Below, in pieces: positions 48,680 through 55,012 of a DNA stretch of 64,000 bases. The translations under genes were made by a program, and so were the position numbers. The notes beneath the pieces were generated by a model, which ran no database searches, was not told the DNA's origin, and saw nothing but the letters and a program-made list of their open reading frames with translations. Numbering within the stretch: the first letter of the stretch is position 1; every line of letters begins with the position of its first letter. The stretch lies in the NCBI GenBank assembly GCA_003209655.1, contig QCPW01000002.1, forward strand, positions 62,001 to 126,000. Direction: 5' to 3'. This stretch comes from Prochlorococcus sp. AG-442-M23 (GTDB lineage: Bacteria > Cyanobacteriota > Cyanobacteriia > PCC-6307 > Cyanobiaceae).

Positions 48680-48774
48680 TAAATTTGAAAATTAAATGGT
48701 GTATAAAATTATACATGGATTATTTCAGGTGTATATTTTCTGCTAACTTAATATATTTGAATAAGAAGAACTTA

Positions 48775-49833
48775 GTGAAAAATGATGCGTTAATAATTGA
48801 TGATTTGCATCATAAATATGATAGGAGAGAATGTTCAAATTGGATATTAAACGAAATTAACCTGAAAATTGAAAATGGCGAATTGTTAGGCTTGCTTGGT
48901 CCTTCTGGTTGCGGAAAAACTACTCTTTTAAGATTAATCGCGGGGTTCGAATATCCCTCTAAAGGTAGGATTTCTCTAAATGATAAGGAAATTTCAAGTA
49001 GGAAAAAAATTCTTAGTCCTGAGAAAAGAAATATTGGTATGGTTTTTCAAGACTATGCACTTTTCCCTCACTTAACCGTTTTGGAAAATGTAATTTTTGG
49101 TTTGAAAAACAAAAAAGACAGATCTAGAGTTGATTATTTATTGAATGTTGTTGGTCTTGATAGTTTTGTTGAAAGGTACCCACATGAACTCTCTGGAGGC
49201 CAAAAACAAAGACTCGCAATTGCGAGAGCTCTTGCTCCAGGTACAAATTTTATTTTATTAGATGAACCTTTTTGTAGTCTTGATATGCATGTCAAACTAA
49301 AATTGAGAAGTGAACTCCCTAATATCCTAAAAGGTTGCAATGCAAGCGGATTGATGGTTACTCATGATCCGGAAGAAGCGATGTCAATTTGCGATAAGGT
49401 CGCCGTTATGAATGATGGGAAAATACATCAAATTGATACGCCACTTAACCTTTTAAATAATCCCAAGACCATATTTGTTAGTAGTTTTATTTTGGGTAAT
49501 AATATTATTAATCTCAAAAAACATGGTAATTCATATATTTCTTGTTTAGGTGAAATAAATTGTTCAGAGTATTTGAAAAATACAGGTATCAAAAGCATGT
49601 CAATTTCGCCTAAATTTATTTCAATTAAAAGATCAGAATCTGGTGATGCGATTGTTATATCTAAAGAATTTCTTGGAGAATTTCTTATATATAAAGTATC
49701 TATTAATGGAAACATATTAAGGGTTAGAACTGATATTAATAATCTCCTTAATAATGGTGTTAAATGTTCTCTTTCTATTAATAAAAATAGTTATTATTTT
49801 TTATATCCTGGAGCATATAAGGAATATATATAG
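48775..49833 (+). CDS. ABC transporter ATP-binding protein, iron/spermidine (FutC/PotA-like) type
   Basis: 352 residues from the GTG at 48775; the frame runs back to TTG 48685, but the extra 30 residues do not look conserved. Walker A is GPSGCGKTTLLRL, the Q-loop is VFQDYALFPHLTV, the signature is LSGGQKQRLAIARAL and Walker B is FILLDEPFCSLD. A C-terminal TOBE-like domain (about 240-350) assigns it to the Fe3+/polyamine importer class. No permease is adjacent, as in cyanobacterial FutC, whose partners are often elsewhere. It lies 237 bases before ferritin. Confidence 0.8.
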   Translation: MKNDALIIDDLHHKYDRRECSNWILNEINLKIENGELLGLLGPSGCGKTTLLRLIAGFEYPSKGRISLNDKEISSRKKILSPEKRNIGMVFQDYALFPHLTVLENVIFGLKNKKDRSRVDYLLNVVGLDSFVERYPHELSGGQKQRLAIARALAPGTNFILLDEPFCSLDMHVKLKLRSELPNILKGCNASGLMVTHDPEEAMSICDKVAVMNDGKIHQIDTPLNLLNNPKTIFVSSFILGNNIINLKKHGNSYISCLGEINCSEYLKNTGIKSMSISPKFISIKRSESGDAIVISKEFLGEFLIYKVSINGNILRVRTDINNLLNNGVKCSLSINKNSYYFLYPGAYKEYI

Positions 49834-49840
49834 ACTTTTT

Positions 49841-49963
49841 TTATAAGCAATTACACTTGCCCCCCTTCCAATTAGAGCATTTTTTCTTTTTACATTTCTT
49901 TTTTTTACTGTTATATATTTTATTAGTTAATAGCAGTTCAGAAAATCTGTACTGTAAATTCAT
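49841..49963 (-). CDS. Cys/Lys-rich 40-residue peptide divergent from ferritin
   Basis: A 40-residue ORF runs from ATG 49963 to TAA 49841. After a plain N-terminal half (MNLQYRFSELLLTNK) it ends with four Lys, Cys, four Lys, Cys and then NWKGGKCNCL, so Cys fall at about 24, 29, 37 and 39 (C-x4-C-x7-C-x-C). This looks like a small metal-binding peptide. Its start lies 11 bases from a Fur-box-like site shared with the ferritin promoter. It converges with the ABC ATPase stop, 7 bases away. No family is recognised, and expression is unproven. Confidence 0.5.
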   Translation of the reverse strand: MNLQYRFSELLLTNKIYNSKKKKCKKKKCSNWKGGKCNCL

Positions 49964-49973
49964 TTATAGTATT

Positions 49974-49992
49974 GAGATTGATTTTCATTATC
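49974..49992. promoter_or_regulatory. Putative Fur box upstream of ferritin
   Basis: GAGATTGATTTTCATTATC matches 15 of 19 positions of the Fur consensus GATAATGATAATCATTATC. It overlaps a possible ferritin promoter (TTGAGA at 49972-49977, 16-base spacer, TATTAT at 49994-49999). It also sits 11 bases upstream of the divergent 40-residue ORF, so one regulator could control both. Confidence 0.45.
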
Positions 49993-50070
49993 ATATTATT
50001 TAATTTAATTCAAAGGATTAATTAATTACTAATTTATACAAAATGTTGTATTATTTTATTAGTTTCTTAT

Positions 50071-50631
50071 ATGGCAATGAAAGAAAATAATCTAAAGTTA
50101 AAGAAATTAATTAATTTTGGTCCATCTGGAAGAGCTGTCGCACAACCAATTGACAAAAGTTTATTGGATAATATTTTTGAACATTTAACAATGGAAAGAT
50201 ATGCCAATGTTCAATATTTTTCTATATACCTCTGGTTTCAAGAACGTGATTTAAATGGATTTGCTTCTCATTTTCTAGGTGAATCACAAGGTGAAATGGA
50301 ACATGCTCAGAAATTTGCAGATTACTTAATCGCAAGAGGACAAAGCGTAAAATTAGATGAAATTCCAGCACCAGTTCAAACATGGGATTCAATAGAGGAT
50401 CTGATTTCCTATTCTTTCAACATGGAGGCTGATTTAACTTCATCTCTGCAACAACTTTATTCTATTTCAGAAAGAATTTCAGATACGAGAACCAACGTAT
50501 TTTTAGATCCAATCATTGAGGCTCAAACAAAATCAGAGGATGAATTCGCAAACATACTCGGTAAAGTAAAGTTTGCTTCTAATCAACCTTCTGCAATCTT
50601 GTTGATAGATAGTGATTTAAAGAAAAAATAG
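50071..50631 (+). CDS. ftn: Ferritin (non-haem)
   Basis: Iron-storage ferroxidase forming 24-mer cages. The four-helix bundle has ferroxidase residues in LTMERYANVQYFS (Glu, about 34-46) and ESQGEMEHAQKFADYL (Glu and His, about 71-86). A Gln/Glu-containing third-helix segment AQTKSEDEFANIL follows (about 151-163). At 186 residues it fits prokaryotic/diatom-type ferritins, with a Lys/Arg-rich N-terminal extension. The first of two closely spaced ATGs is used. The promoter region carries a Fur-like site. Confidence 0.93.
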   Translation: MAMKENNLKLKKLINFGPSGRAVAQPIDKSLLDNIFEHLTMERYANVQYFSIYLWFQERDLNGFASHFLGESQGEMEHAQKFADYLIARGQSVKLDEIPAPVQTWDSIEDLISYSFNMEADLTSSLQQLYSISERISDTRTNVFLDPIIEAQTKSEDEFANILGKVKFASNQPSAILLIDSDLKKK

Positions 50632-50907
50632 ATTACTTTCAAATTTATTTTCATTCAATGTTCTTTTCGTTATTTCAAAAAGTAAATTAGAAAAGTTGAT
50701 TTTATCATTATTATTTTTATTTAAGAGCTCTGCTATTTTATAAAGCTCATTAACTCTTTTAAAAATATGTTTGTTTTCAGAAAATAGCCTTCCCTTCAAC
50801 GCTTTATTTTCTGTAGTTTTGTAGGACTGCTTGATATTTCTGAGCCTATTCGATAAAACTTCAACTTCCATTAACAAGTTGCTAGTAAGTGATTGTGATT
50901 CCTTCAT
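50617..50907 (-). CDS. Hypothetical helical protein downstream of the Crp/Fnr gene
   Basis: 96 residues from ATG 50907 (MKESQSLTSNLLMEVEVLSNRL). It is all-helical with a possible coiled coil (about 8-60) and rich in Asn and Lys. No domain is recognised. It begins 4 bases after the regulator gene and so is probably in its operon. The frame extends upstream to 50931, which would overlap the regulator. Its 3' end overlaps ferritin by 15 bases on the other strand. Confidence 0.6.
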   Translation of the reverse strand: MKESQSLTSNLLMEVEVLSNRLRNIKQSYKTTENKALKGRLFSENKHIFKRVNELYKIAELLNKNNNDKINFSNLLFEITKRTLNENKFESNLFFL

Positions 50908-50911
50908 GTTT

Positions 50912-51499
50912 TTAAAGCGGTGATGTTTCAATAAAAGAAGGCGCTATACTTATTGTCTGCTTTCCAATTGGAGCTATTAATAATTCTGATGAACGTAGTT
51001 TCGATATTAATCTAGTTGATGTTACTCGGGTTGAACCAATTAATTCACCTATCCTTTCATGGGTAAGCCTAAAAGGTAATTCGCACCATTGTCCACATCT
51101 TTTCCCGAGTCGGTTAGTTAATATTGAGAATAAAGCTTGCATTCTTTGTTCGGCATTACCTAAATGCCTAATTCTTAAAAGTTGAAGAGTCCATTCATTA
51201 ACTGCATCAAATCCGGAATTTTCATCAATACTGACATTACTATGAAAAGATAAATCCGTTAATGCTTCTAAACAAACACCATCACTACATAATAAATCTG
51301 TTCTTAATTGATCTCCTGACTGTAAAAAAGCAAGGGTCATTCCCTCAGTTTCTTCGCATGGACAATATACTCTTGCAATTCCTTTCTCAACTTCAAGACA
51401 AGTACCTTTTGGCCTTGACGAAGGATCTATAAGCACAGACTGCCCGGTTATTAATCTGACTGTTTTTGTTGAGAATTCCCCATAATTACGGAAATTCAT
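50912..51499 (-). CDS. Crp/Fnr-family transcription regulator
   Basis: 195 residues from ATG 51499; the frame runs up to 51532 through the Fur-box region and is not used. The N-terminal cNMP-type beta barrel (about 10-115) lacks the arginine/serine pocket of cAMP-binding Crp but has Cys-containing loops YCPCEETEG and LLCSDGVC. The winged-helix domain contains LTHERIGELIGSTRVTSTRL (about 150-169). Two Fur-like sites lie just upstream. It may be the iron-responsive regulator of the neighbouring genes; that is inference. Confidence 0.85.
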   Translation of the reverse strand: MNFRNYGEFSTKTVRLITGQSVLIDPSSRPKGTCLEVEKGIARVYCPCEETEGMTLAFLQSGDQLRTDLLCSDGVCLEALTDLSFHSNVSIDENSGFDAVNEWTLQLLRIRHLGNAEQRMQALFSILTNRLGKRCGQWCELPFRLTHERIGELIGSTRVTSTRLISKLRSSELLIAPIGKQTISIAPSFIETSPL

Positions 51500-51511
51500 A
51501 GGTTTATTTAT

Positions 51512-51530
51512 GATAATGAGAATTATTATC
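51512..51530. promoter_or_regulatory. Fur box upstream of the Crp/Fnr gene
   Basis: GATAATGAGAATTATTATC matches 17 of 19 positions of the Fur consensus, with differences only at positions 9 and 13. It starts 13 bases upstream of the regulator's ATG (minus strand). It is the strongest Fur-like site seen in the window. Confidence 0.75.
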
Positions 51531-51556
51531 AATTATGCAACAATTATTAAACTATT

Positions 51557-51655: not shown

Positions 51656-51847
51656 ATGATTTCTAATAAAATTTGTTTAAATTGCGGCAGTTCTGATCTT
51701 GTTTCAGATAGATCACTTGGAGGTAGGATGATTTGTTCTAAATGTGGTTCCTCTTCTTTAAGAAATAAATCTTTTCCCCTAAACAGAAACAAAAATATTA
51801 TTTATGTTGTAATTGCTCTGATTATTTTATTGATAATTGTTTTTTAG
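51656..51847 (+). CDS. Zinc-ribbon small membrane protein (63 aa)
   Basis: 63 residues. The N-terminal zinc ribbon CLNCGSSDLVSDRSLGG is followed by CSKCGSS (two C-x2-C knuckles, Cys at about 7, 10, 27 and 30). A single C-terminal membrane segment follows (about 46-63, NIIYVVIALIILLIIVF). It is divergent from the Crp/Fnr gene, with the Fur-like sites between them. Its end overlaps the ABC ATPase gene by 26 bases on the other strand. Confidence 0.7.
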   Translation: MISNKICLNCGSSDLVSDRSLGGRMICSKCGSSSLRNKSFPLNRNKNIIYVVIALIILLIIVF

Positions 51848-52628
51848 ATTTTCTATAAATATGCCAGCTTCCATTATGTTTAATAATATTGATATTTATG
51901 TCAAATAGTTTATTTATATTTTTATTATTTATGGTTTTTGATTGAGAGCCATCTGCAATTATCATTCTGTCCTTCAACATTATGATTCTGTTATATATTT
52001 CTGTAATCATTGTAATATCGTGGGTTATACATATTATTTGAGTGTCTAATTTATTTAATTCATTTATCTGATCTATTACATAAAATTTTGATTTCAAATC
52101 TAAATTAGCTATTGGCTCATCAAGAATCAAAATATCTGGTTTTTTTATTAGAGCTCTGGCAATTAGTACAATTTGTTTTTCTCCGTCTGATAAATAAGAA
52201 AAATTTTTTTGCGACAAATGTATTATTTGCATTTCTTTTAATAGCATCTCAACTAAAAAATAATCTTTTTCTGTTTTTTCACTAATTTTGCAATATTTAC
52301 CATATAAACCACTATTAATTAAATCAATAACTTTTAACTTTGGATTTATTCTTCTTCTTATCTCGTGGTTAACCACACTTATTCTTTTTCTAAGTCCCCA
52401 AATATTAATAAGCTCTTCATTAAATATTTTAAAAACTGCACCATTCTTTATAACTGGATATATTGTTCTATTTATAAGTTCTACTAAAGAAGATTTGCCT
52501 GAACCATTTGGGCCAATCAAAATTACATTTTCACCATATTTAAGTTTTAAATTTAAATCCTTAACAACCTCATATCCATTTTTAATACAAGTAATATTTC
52601 TTGCTTCTAGCCAATAATCATTATTCAC
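51822..52628 (-). CDS. Stand-alone ABC transporter ATP-binding protein
   Basis: 268 residues. Walker A is GPNGSGKSSLVELI (about 39), the signature is LSDGEKQIVLIARALIKK (about 146; Asp-Gly-Glu-Lys-Gln variant) and Walker B is ILILDEPIANLDL (about 168). The H-loop is ICITHDITMI (about 200). It resembles the iron-siderophore/molybdate-type subfamily (YlmA/ModF-like). No permease is adjacent. The start is GTG and shares one base with the upstream 33-residue ORF's stop (TAGTG). Confidence 0.8.
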   Translation of the reverse strand: MNNDYWLEARNITCIKNGYEVVKDLNLKLKYGENVILIGPNGSGKSSLVELINRTIYPVIKNGAVFKIFNEELINIWGLRKRISVVNHEIRRRINPKLKVIDLINSGLYGKYCKISEKTEKDYFLVEMLLKEMQIIHLSQKNFSYLSDGEKQIVLIARALIKKPDILILDEPIANLDLKSKFYVIDQINELNKLDTQIICITHDITMITEIYNRIIMLKDRMIIADGSQSKTINNKNINKLFDININIIKHNGSWHIYRKSKKQLSIK

Positions 52629-52729
52629 TAAAATTTGCTACTCCAGAATATAAATAATTGTAGTGAGCTTAAAACGAATATTAAAAGATAAAGCCAATTA
52701 AGCCATGTAGGTCTATTAACTTTTTTCAT
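52628..52729 (-). CDS. 33-residue single-span membrane protein
   Basis: ORF from ATG 52729: it begins MKKVNRPTWLNWLYLLIFVL and ends with SSLQLFIFWSSKF. It is one hydrophobic helix of about 20 residues with a basic N-terminus, suggesting the N-terminus faces the cytoplasm. It begins 4 bases after the Rieske gene stop and its TAG overlaps the GTG of the ABC ATPase. Tight packing on both sides indicates a real gene in a Rieske - small protein - ATPase operon. It could anchor the ATPase or the oxygenase; function is unknown. Confidence 0.65.
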   Translation of the reverse strand: MKKVNRPTWLNWLYLLIFVLSSLQLFIFWSSKF

Positions 52730-52733
52730 CTAA

Positions 52734-54056
52734 TTAAATAATAAGCATTAAAAATATAAGCGGAGCTGCATATCTTATGAATGTTTTTCTAATTATATTT
52801 ATATTATTAATTATTTCTAGTTTTTTAATTTCTGGCGGGTATTTAAATATTATCTGATCATAAACATTTAGATCTTTATTTTTATTTGTATTTTTCCATG
52901 GACTATCCTTTTCTTGCGATTTTTCATACCAGTTCCAGAAATAATTTATGATTCTATCTTCACCTAGAAGCTTTATCTCGTCATTTTTTATTAAACCTAA
53001 TTTATGATTATATGTTTGAGTTTTAAGAATAATATAATCTTCATCAAATATTTTATAAAATATCTTTTTTTGAATTTCTTTAAATAAAATTAAATTATTT
53101 AGTATTTTGTTTTTAAGGAATTTCCTATAGTGCCTAACAATTACTCTTGCTTTATTTTCTCCTAAGGGAATGTGATCAAGTACTTGCAAATATCTAGATA
53201 CAGCTGGGTCTCCTTTGTAAATCAAGATTCTACCTGGTGGAATATACCTTATTCTTATAAATTCTTTTGTAGGATTGTTTTTATAAAAATATATACTTTC
53301 AATATAATTAGGATTTATGTTTATTTTTTGATTAAAACTTACTAATACATTTTTATTTACTTCTTTATCTGGAATTGTATCTCCATGAACCCAAAATATA
53401 TGAAGTATATCTAAATGATTTTCAATAATCCTAGACCAGTCACATTTAAAATCAACTAAAACTTCTTCAGATGCGGTCTCTTTAAGATCAAATCCGTTAC
53501 CAATCAATTCATGTTTATTAATTAATGATTCCTCATTAATGCTGTTTAAATCTGTCTCAGACTTGTCTGAAAAATAAATAAAAATATAGCTTTCTTTCTC
53601 TATTACTTTGTATTGAGATAAGTGAATCCTTTTTGCATAATTATCGTAATTATTATCAACAATGTGACTACAAGTTATTCTATCAACATTCTTGCAATTT
53701 CCGTCTGAACTGAATCTTGCCCCATGGTAAGGACACGTTAATTCTCCATTAGATATTGAACCTCCATAAAAAGATGCACCTCTATGAGGACAAATATTTT
53801 TTATACATCTTACATTGTTCTTCTCGTCTCTAAACAGTAGAAGAGGTTCATCAAACAATGAGAAATAATGAAGCTTGTTTTTTTTAAGCTCCTTTGACGG
53901 ACAAATTGCGTACCAACCATACAAACCTATTTTTAATTCTTTTTGCCTTTCTATTACCTCTAAATTATCAATATTAACTACTGTTCCCTTTTTAAAAGGT
54001 TTTAAAACCGTATTAATGTCTTTAGCTTTAAAAAAATTAATTTGCTTATTTTCCAT
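52734..54056 (-). CDS. Rieske [2Fe-2S] oxygenase, PaO/Tic55-like
   Basis: 440 residues. The Rieske motif pair is CPHRGASFYGG (about 88) and CPYHGARF (about 107). The mononuclear iron site is N-x2-D-x2-H-x4-H in ENHLDILHIFWVHGD (about 212-226). A C-terminal hydrophobic anchor lies at about 422-440. The layout matches pheophorbide a oxygenase, chlorophyllide a oxygenase and Tic55-type membrane oxygenases. The substrate is not known; a chlorophyll derivative or a lipid are options. It is downstream of an open leftward promoter region. Confidence 0.85.
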   Translation of the reverse strand: MENKQINFFKAKDINTVLKPFKKGTVVNIDNLEVIERQKELKIGLYGWYAICPSKELKKNKLHYFSLFDEPLLLFRDEKNNVRCIKNICPHRGASFYGGSISNGELTCPYHGARFSSDGNCKNVDRITCSHIVDNNYDNYAKRIHLSQYKVIEKESYIFIYFSDKSETDLNSINEESLINKHELIGNGFDLKETASEEVLVDFKCDWSRIIENHLDILHIFWVHGDTIPDKEVNKNVLVSFNQKININPNYIESIYFYKNNPTKEFIRIRYIPPGRILIYKGDPAVSRYLQVLDHIPLGENKARVIVRHYRKFLKNKILNNLILFKEIQKKIFYKIFDEDYIILKTQTYNHKLGLIKNDEIKLLGEDRIINYFWNWYEKSQEKDSPWKNTNKNKDLNVYDQIIFKYPPEIKKLEIINNINIIRKTFIRYAAPLIFLMLII

Positions 54057-54664: not shown

Positions 54665-55012
54665 ATGATCAGAAATATCTTAAATCACATTCTATGTTTA
54701 ATTGTACTGATATCTTTTGATTCTCCTTTGTATCCAATTGATTTTTCAGAAAAAGTTATTGAAAATTATACTTTTAAGATTTCTAGGAAATTTTCTAATA
54801 CTTTTTGTAACTCAACTAAATTTGGCATATCGGAAGATGGAGCTTTAAGATTTTCTATTGGAGAAACAAATAAAGAATTTTCAAATAACAAATTAAATAA
54901 ATTTGTTGATTATAAACTTCTTAATAAAAATATCCTTCTTAATCTAGAGAAAAATTGCCAGATATTCGACTTTCCAGAACATGAACTAGAAAATTTGGCA
55001 TTCAATTATTAA
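54665..55012 (+). CDS. Exported hypothetical protein
   Basis: 115 residues with a signal-peptide-like N-terminus (MIRNILNHILCLIVLISFDS). The mature part has three Cys (about 48, 98 and so on) and otherwise no recognised domain. Composition is Asn/Lys/Phe rich, like other low-GC accessory genes. It ends 7 bases before the convergent 60-residue membrane gene. It is probably a picocyanobacterial lineage-specific protein. Confidence 0.5.
   Translation: MIRNILNHILCLIVLISFDSPLYPIDFSEKVIENYTFKISRKFSNTFCNSTKFGISEDGALRFSIGETNKEFSNNKLNKFVDYKLLNKNILLNLEKNCQIFDFPEHELENLAFNY

Follow-up and report, generated by a model that had tools for sequence, protein, structure and literature searches.

A family-wide predicted membrane microprotein encoded between genes for a probable chlorophyll b synthase and an ABC-type ATPase in Prochlorococcus

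Using a combination of open reading frames (ORFs), conservation, selection, distribution and gene order, our analysis of a 64,000-nucleotide stretch of DNA (the window) draws attention to a predicted membrane microprotein whose gene is packed between those of a Rieske oxygenase and an ABC-type ATPase (Table 1). We think it rather probable that this is the cao operon of a high-light-kind Prochlorococcus, carrying a small protein and an ATPase that are independent of Cao, and that the small protein is an accessory of the thylakoid and not a dedicated linker of its two neighbours. The trio probably unites, in one operon, a lineage-specific cao with two genes of wider and independent distributions. 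The enzyme itself is known and operons of this sort are ordinary; what is of interest is the family-wide microprotein. The arrangement originally described, three genes separated by a gap of 4 bases at one junction and overlapping by the single base of TAGTG at the other, is borne out by the ORF coordinates, all on the minus strand; the span then assigned to it, 52628-54056, takes in the oxygenase and the small ORF and leaves the ATPase (51822-52628) outside. The genome of the window comprises 1.63 Mb in 27 contigs. Promoter-like sites number 24, where shuffled sequence averages 27.2, and terminator-like sites 0, where it averages 0.5; neither count is informative.

Table 1. Features of the oxygenase locus and its neighbours, in window coordinates.
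Feature	Position	Strand	Remarks
Rieske non-heme iron oxygenase, very probably PcCao	52734-54056	-	440 aa, ATG start, C-terminal hydrophobic anchor
Gap between oxygenase gene and small ORF	52730-52733	-	4 bases
Membrane microprotein, single predicted helix	52628-52729	-	33 aa, ATG start, family-wide, no family-library match
TAGTG 1-base overlap	52628	-	small-ORF stop and ATPase start
ABC-type ATPase	51822-52628	-	268 aa, GTG start; no permease gene recognised alongside
Zinc-ribbon-like protein	51656-51847	+	63 aa; Pfam match below cut-off; recurrent neighbour
Crp-family regulator	50912-51532	-	recurrent neighbour of the trio cluster
Ferritin	50071-50631	+	recurrent neighbour

Distribution, motifs and the papers cited below make it very probable that the oxygenase is PcCao, which synthesises chlorophyll b in Prochlorococcus. 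Enzymes of this class carry a Rieske motif, CxH-x16-CxxH, and a mononuclear iron site, D-x2-H-x4-H; the corresponding Rieske ligands C89, H91, C108 and H111 and the iron residues D216, H219 and H224 are invariant in all 24 aligned rows. In Pfam the protein matches Rieske (7.3e-23) and, above the cut-off, VanA_C (6.1e-7), while PaO stays sub-threshold at 19.4 bits against a cut-off of 27. The AlphaFold2 model (mean pLDDT 73.6, with 67 of 440 residues below 50, namely residues 1-38 and three short stretches) finds its best PDB match in dicamba monooxygenase (3gob, E 1.4e-17, TM 0.56 by query length) and resembles other Rieske oxygenases as well, which points to a Rieske oxygenase fold. That the enzyme has an anchor of its own, as had been proposed, agrees with its most hydrophobic 19-residue stretch, 422-440, which falls in the predicted C-terminal helix 407-439.

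Within the genomes sampled, strong matches to the enzyme are confined to the window's family. Strong matches (E <= 1e-39) occur in 115 of 151 genomes of the window's genus, with nine more genomes matching weakly and 27 giving none; across the family, 64 of 201 genomes match strongly (E <= 1e-48) and 109 more weakly, at best with E 2.3e-16. In a phylum sample of 214 genomes, the ten that match at E <= 1e-25 all belong to the window's family. We call the window's genus Prochlorococcus on the strength of names: of the named oxygenase loci (the best 80 of 237), 79 bear the name Prochlorococcus and the other one Synechococcaceae. It appears to be of the high-light kind, and the other Cao-bearing genera of the family would likewise be Prochlorococcus and the Cao-less ones Synechococcus-like. 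Three of the genomes we take to be those of familiar strains, G015 of MED4, G219 of MIT9313 and G160 of SS120. A 2006 study reportedly showed that the Prochlorococcus enzyme makes chlorophyll b. Passages of two papers describe PcCao as a chlorophyll b synthase specific to Prochlorococcus (PMC3441193, PMC10284923), the second of them using PcCAO as the predicted chlorophyll b synthase specific to Prochlorococcus strains (PMC10284923), and CAO enzymes are portrayed in part of another as performing C7 chemistry (PMC13297055). In the relevant portion of a further source, the annotation given for MED4 PMM0808 is Rieske iron-sulfur protein (PMC9606707); this may be the counterpart of the window gene. 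A second Rieske oxygenase, of about 341 aa and about 25% identity, is present in at least 34 genomes of the genus (for example at G037:C8:13007-13615).

Tight packing by itself is weak evidence that the small ORF is a gene, because an ATG ORF filling the gap also arises in 102 of 20,000 dinucleotide shuffles of that gap. Conservation and selection carry the case. Reading of 53 distinct genomes from the window's genus, duplicates removed, placed the small ORF 3' of cao in every one, and it follows cao in all 80 named loci (the best 80 of 237, largely of the same species as the 53 genomes). Within these 80 loci the ORF is 33 aa long in 76, the gap to cao measures 2-6 bases in 78, and cao, small ORF and ATPase occur together in 79, the contig of the eightieth ending after the small ORF; a 1-base overlap with the ATPase gene is kept in 67 of the 79. 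The expectation that gene order and small-ORF length would be conserved in relatives thus holds throughout the window's genus, where both the small ORF and the probable operon persist. The small ORF is under purifying selection: as raw proportions uncorrected for relatedness, pN/pS over the 1596 pairs of 57 distinct genus-type sequences is 0.189, compared with 0.84 and 2.42 when the frame is shifted, and among 43 other small-ORF sequences it is 0.25, compared with 1.11 and 1.15. The reading that the ORF is untranslated and a mere spacer between two genes could appeal to the gap-filling shuffles and to the silence of the family libraries, but a pN/pS of 0.19 over the 57 distinct sequences and the conservation of the same protein at other genomic positions speak against it, and we give it practically no credence.

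The encoded protein is modelled by AlphaFold2 as one helix spanning residues 8-32 (mean pLDDT 87.5); its best 19-residue hydropathy is 1.97, positive residues stand at positions 2, 3, 6 and 32, and the consensus reads RPxW[LM]NWxxLxIFxxSSxQLxxFW. Across the picocyanobacterial family it is usually encoded by a single copy per genome, with or without Cao. A first profile, built from 30 copies that all came from cao-adjacent loci, matches 166 of 201 family genomes, including 123 of the 131 good ones, and finds nothing in the other 35, eight of them good. A wider profile matches all 61 sampled genomes of the order, which represent 15 of 15 genera and without exception belong to the window's family; in a sample of 244 genomes from the phylum, 29 match, of which 24 belong to the family (E <1e-15) and five, from outside it, match weakly over partial stretches (E 8e-4 to 0.01). 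One of those five loci, L165, was read as DNA, and no convincing homolog was seen there. Among 20 loci fetched around small-protein matches, 15 come from genomes without a strong Cao match. Its presence in many Cao-less family genomes rules out a protein specific to Cao, and its unlinked existence in genomes without a strong Cao match likewise excludes a second oxygenase anchor that has split off.

Searches of libraries, structures, viruses and literature yielded no relative. The small protein has no match in Pfam, NCBIfam or PHROGs, and a PDB profile search, in which a profile this short may miss distant relatives, returned only two phage tail-tube chains at E 2.2; a solved photosystem, b6f or NDH subunit was discarded as a candidate identity for want of any match in that search. 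A search for PetL was silent everywhere, controls included, and is uninformative. In IMG/VR the small-protein profile gave eight pattern matches, none confirmed, in a scan whose confirmation step a 33-aa query may fail, and the oxygenase gave 20, again with none confirmed. A text search of open-licence literature, by terms other than sequence or accession, found nothing on the small protein, and Table 5 of the 2010 list of Clade C signature proteins holds no entry shorter than 42 aa (PMC2823733).

Gene order around cao is uniform in the window's genus and varied beyond it. At each of the 20 genus loci, one of which has a truncated cao, the genes for Cao, the small protein and the ATPase are followed by those for the zinc-ribbon-like protein, the Crp-type regulator, ferritin and a second ABC ATPase, and by nth. 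Among 23 Cao loci from other genera (L217 being left out as a duplicate of L084), cao, small gene and ATPase gene are contiguous in nine; a flavodoxin gene intervenes between the last two in five; one locus has cao, small gene and flavodoxin without the ATPase and one cao and small gene without it; in five, the ATPase gene comes immediately after cao and the small gene is missing there; and in two, of the MIT9313-type genus, cao is linked to neither. The small gene adjoins cao in 16 of the 23. Four of the seven genomes lacking this adjacency carry the small gene elsewhere or on another contig (G153, G178, G219, G319), and the remaining three, 65-77% complete, gave no small-protein match.

Adjacency kept in 53 genus genomes and in those 16 other loci would fit a secondary recruitment, in which a membrane protein with an older helper role was enlisted by Prochlorococcus to work with Cao, as an anchor or for the hand-over of pigment to antenna proteins, and kept that older role elsewhere. 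L140 (G153), where the small gene sits between two antenna genes of CP43/Pcb type, also speaks for such a history. The adjacency is missing, however, in seven of the 23 loci, four of them from genomes that hold the small gene in another place, and we regard recruitment as a tentative alternative. Genome streamlining might instead have gathered three unrelated genes into one transcript with no functional link: the genomes are compact, the three genes differ in distribution and, on a poorly resolved Cao tree, 6 changes account for cao-small adjacency, shuffled labels averaging 6.5 and 212 of 500 shuffles being as low. We regard streamlining alone as an equally tentative alternative; against it, many genera whose Cao proteins share about 50% identity retain the adjacency, and light and iron genes lie nearby. 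A single origin of the adjacency finds no support on the Cao tree, where its distribution is as unclustered as that of shuffled labels.

Those light and iron genes, lying near cao or the small gene in other genera, favour our preferred reading of a Cao-independent thylakoid accessory within the cao operon; an absence of small-protein matches from 35 of 201 family genomes and the unclustered adjacency on the Cao tree count against it. Of the 23 other-genera loci, nine include an antenna gene of this type, 13 ferritin and six flavodoxin. Pfam bears out these names for flavodoxin and ferritin in L084 and for flavodoxin in L141, and it places the antenna genes of both L086 and L140 in the PSII (CP43-type) family. 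Downstream of the small gene, several genera have a flavodoxin gene (L081, L082, L084, L092, L215, L218, L141, L143), in the MIT9313-type genus at a distance of 327 and 658 bases (L143 and L141, respectively); flavodoxin beside the small gene suggests an iron-stress connection.

Further neighbours recur around the operon. In the window, the zinc-ribbon-like gene (51656-51847, plus strand) is convergent with the ATPase gene and overlaps its 3' end; it recurs in all 20 genus loci and in 19 of the 23 Cao loci from other genera, and adjoins the ATPase gene in the MIT9313-type genus where cao lies elsewhere (L208 and, by eye, L209). Beside it stands an AhpC/TSA_2-type gene in 21 of the 23 other-genera loci (for example L080 and L086) and in none of the 20 genus loci. 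An iron-type cluster adjoining the operon at 48685-51532, consisting of a second ABC ATPase (382 aa), ferritin and the Crp-type regulator, has its genes recurring in all 20 genus loci. On the other side, a 115-aa ORF with an N-terminal hydrophobic stretch and no Pfam match (54665-55012, plus strand) is divergent from cao and present there in 19 of the 20.

The ATPase carries the hallmarks of ABC ATPases, a Walker A motif (GPNGSGKS), a signature motif (LSDGEKQ) and a Walker B motif (ILILDEP), and matches Pfam ABC_tran at 5e-26. The original prediction that it lacks a permease agrees with our scan, in which no cognate permease was recognised among the subset of window ORFs compared with Pfam. 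Orthologs, defined by at least 256 bits where other ABC proteins listed reach at most 131, occur in 83 of 121 family genomes, some of them Cao-less. At 16 ATPase loci away from the trio (14 in Cao-less genomes and two in the MIT9313-type genus), the surrounding 4 kb or so hold no small gene and, antisense ORFs apart, no recurrent neighbour that might be a permease; across 20 ATPase loci compared, no neighbour other than ORFs antisense to the ATPase recurs in more than four. Conversely, the 20 loci fetched around small-protein matches contain no ATPase ortholog within about 6 kb (for L143, within its 3.5 kb contig). G180 and G201, at 99 and 100% completeness, have no ATPase ortholog, yet their cao and small gene are adjacent (L085, L092).

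These patterns bear on the idea of a dedicated complex in which the small protein would form a physical bridge between the ABC ATPase and the oxygenase anchored in the membrane. The constant tight packing in the window's genus and the conserved 1-base overlap argue for it; against it stand the occurrence of the small protein without Cao, the two near-complete genomes that keep cao and the small gene adjacent without the ATPase, and the differing gene orders of other genera. We accordingly consider a dedicated three-part complex unlikely and give it little credence. Of the functional trio first proposed, a tight, conserved and probably translationally coupled set stands; the small protein as a link between oxygenase and ATPase is not supported, in light of their independent distributions, their varied gene orders and the genomes with cao and small gene that lack the ATPase.

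As to function, this uncharacterised membrane microprotein of picocyanobacteria is most likely an accessory of a thylakoid photosynthetic complex, a role suggested by its distribution, its hydrophobicity and its neighbours as read from sequence. Two findings weigh against a thylakoid role: the absence of any match to a solved photosystem, b6f or NDH subunit, and the neighbours of the small gene in Cao-less genomes, namely polyphosphate kinase 2, two-component genes and unnamed ORFs, which suggest no photosynthetic pathway. Among the 20 small-gene loci, an upstream ORF of 64-111 aa with no Pfam match recurs in 12, two ORF families lie further downstream in 14, and polyphosphate kinase 2 and two-component genes (response regulator) appear in some; together these neighbours point to no pathway.

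We suggest that, in the window's genus, Cao would convert the C7 methyl group of (divinyl) chlorophyllide a to the formyl group of chlorophyll b at the membrane, and that the small protein would serve a thylakoid photosynthetic complex common to picocyanobacteria as a small subunit with an accessory or assembly role, its dose in that genus being tied to that of Cao. Because of the gene spacing, namely the tight packing and the 1-base overlap, we infer joint transcription and coupled translation, by which the pigment enzyme, the microprotein and the ATPase would be made together. The ATPase may have a partner encoded elsewhere or play a role other than transport. More speculatively, and in our view with a rather low probability, the protein of 33-37 aa could be an overlooked stoichiometric core subunit of a thylakoid complex, specific to alpha-cyanobacteria, whose gene has docked to cao in Prochlorococcus and would couple pigment synthesis to the assembly of antenna or photosystem.

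Prochlorococcus and marine Synechococcus dominate large areas of the ocean, as stated in part of an earlier study (PMC3441193). Being family-wide, under purifying selection and without a match in the family libraries searched, the microprotein makes a promising candidate for a component still missing from the picture of their photosynthetic machinery. Its gene is tied by gene order to the synthesis of chlorophyll b, and its copies in Cao-less genomes offer a view of the protein apart from that pigment.

Each member of the trio can be set beside known systems. The oxygenase resembles PcCao, as parts of two papers describe it (PMC3441193, PMC10284923), in being a Rieske and mononuclear iron oxygenase of Prochlorococcus, the two being compared here by description; those parts make no mention of an anchor or of operon partners. 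With plant and algal CAO and PaO-type membrane enzymes, as treated in passages of another source (PMC13297055), it shares membership of the Rieske oxygenases, those enzymes acting on tetrapyrroles; it differs in that its PaO match is sub-threshold whereas VanA_C passes, plant CAO being set beside it by description only. For the ATPase, siderophore, heme and zinc ABC ATPases (HmuV-, AztA- and FecE-type) are among the best curated models, but none comes near its cut-off (the heme model scores 133 bits where 261 are required) and no permease was recognised alongside the window gene. The microprotein may be set beside Norf4 and HliR1, which are presented in part of one study as cyanobacterial single-helix microproteins of 31 and 37 aa (PMC5126843). 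According to that study alpha-cyanobacteria lack Norf4 (PMC5126843), whereas our profiles matched the small protein convincingly in the window's family alone. By description, the small protein has in common with both its size and one predicted membrane helix (PMC5126843).
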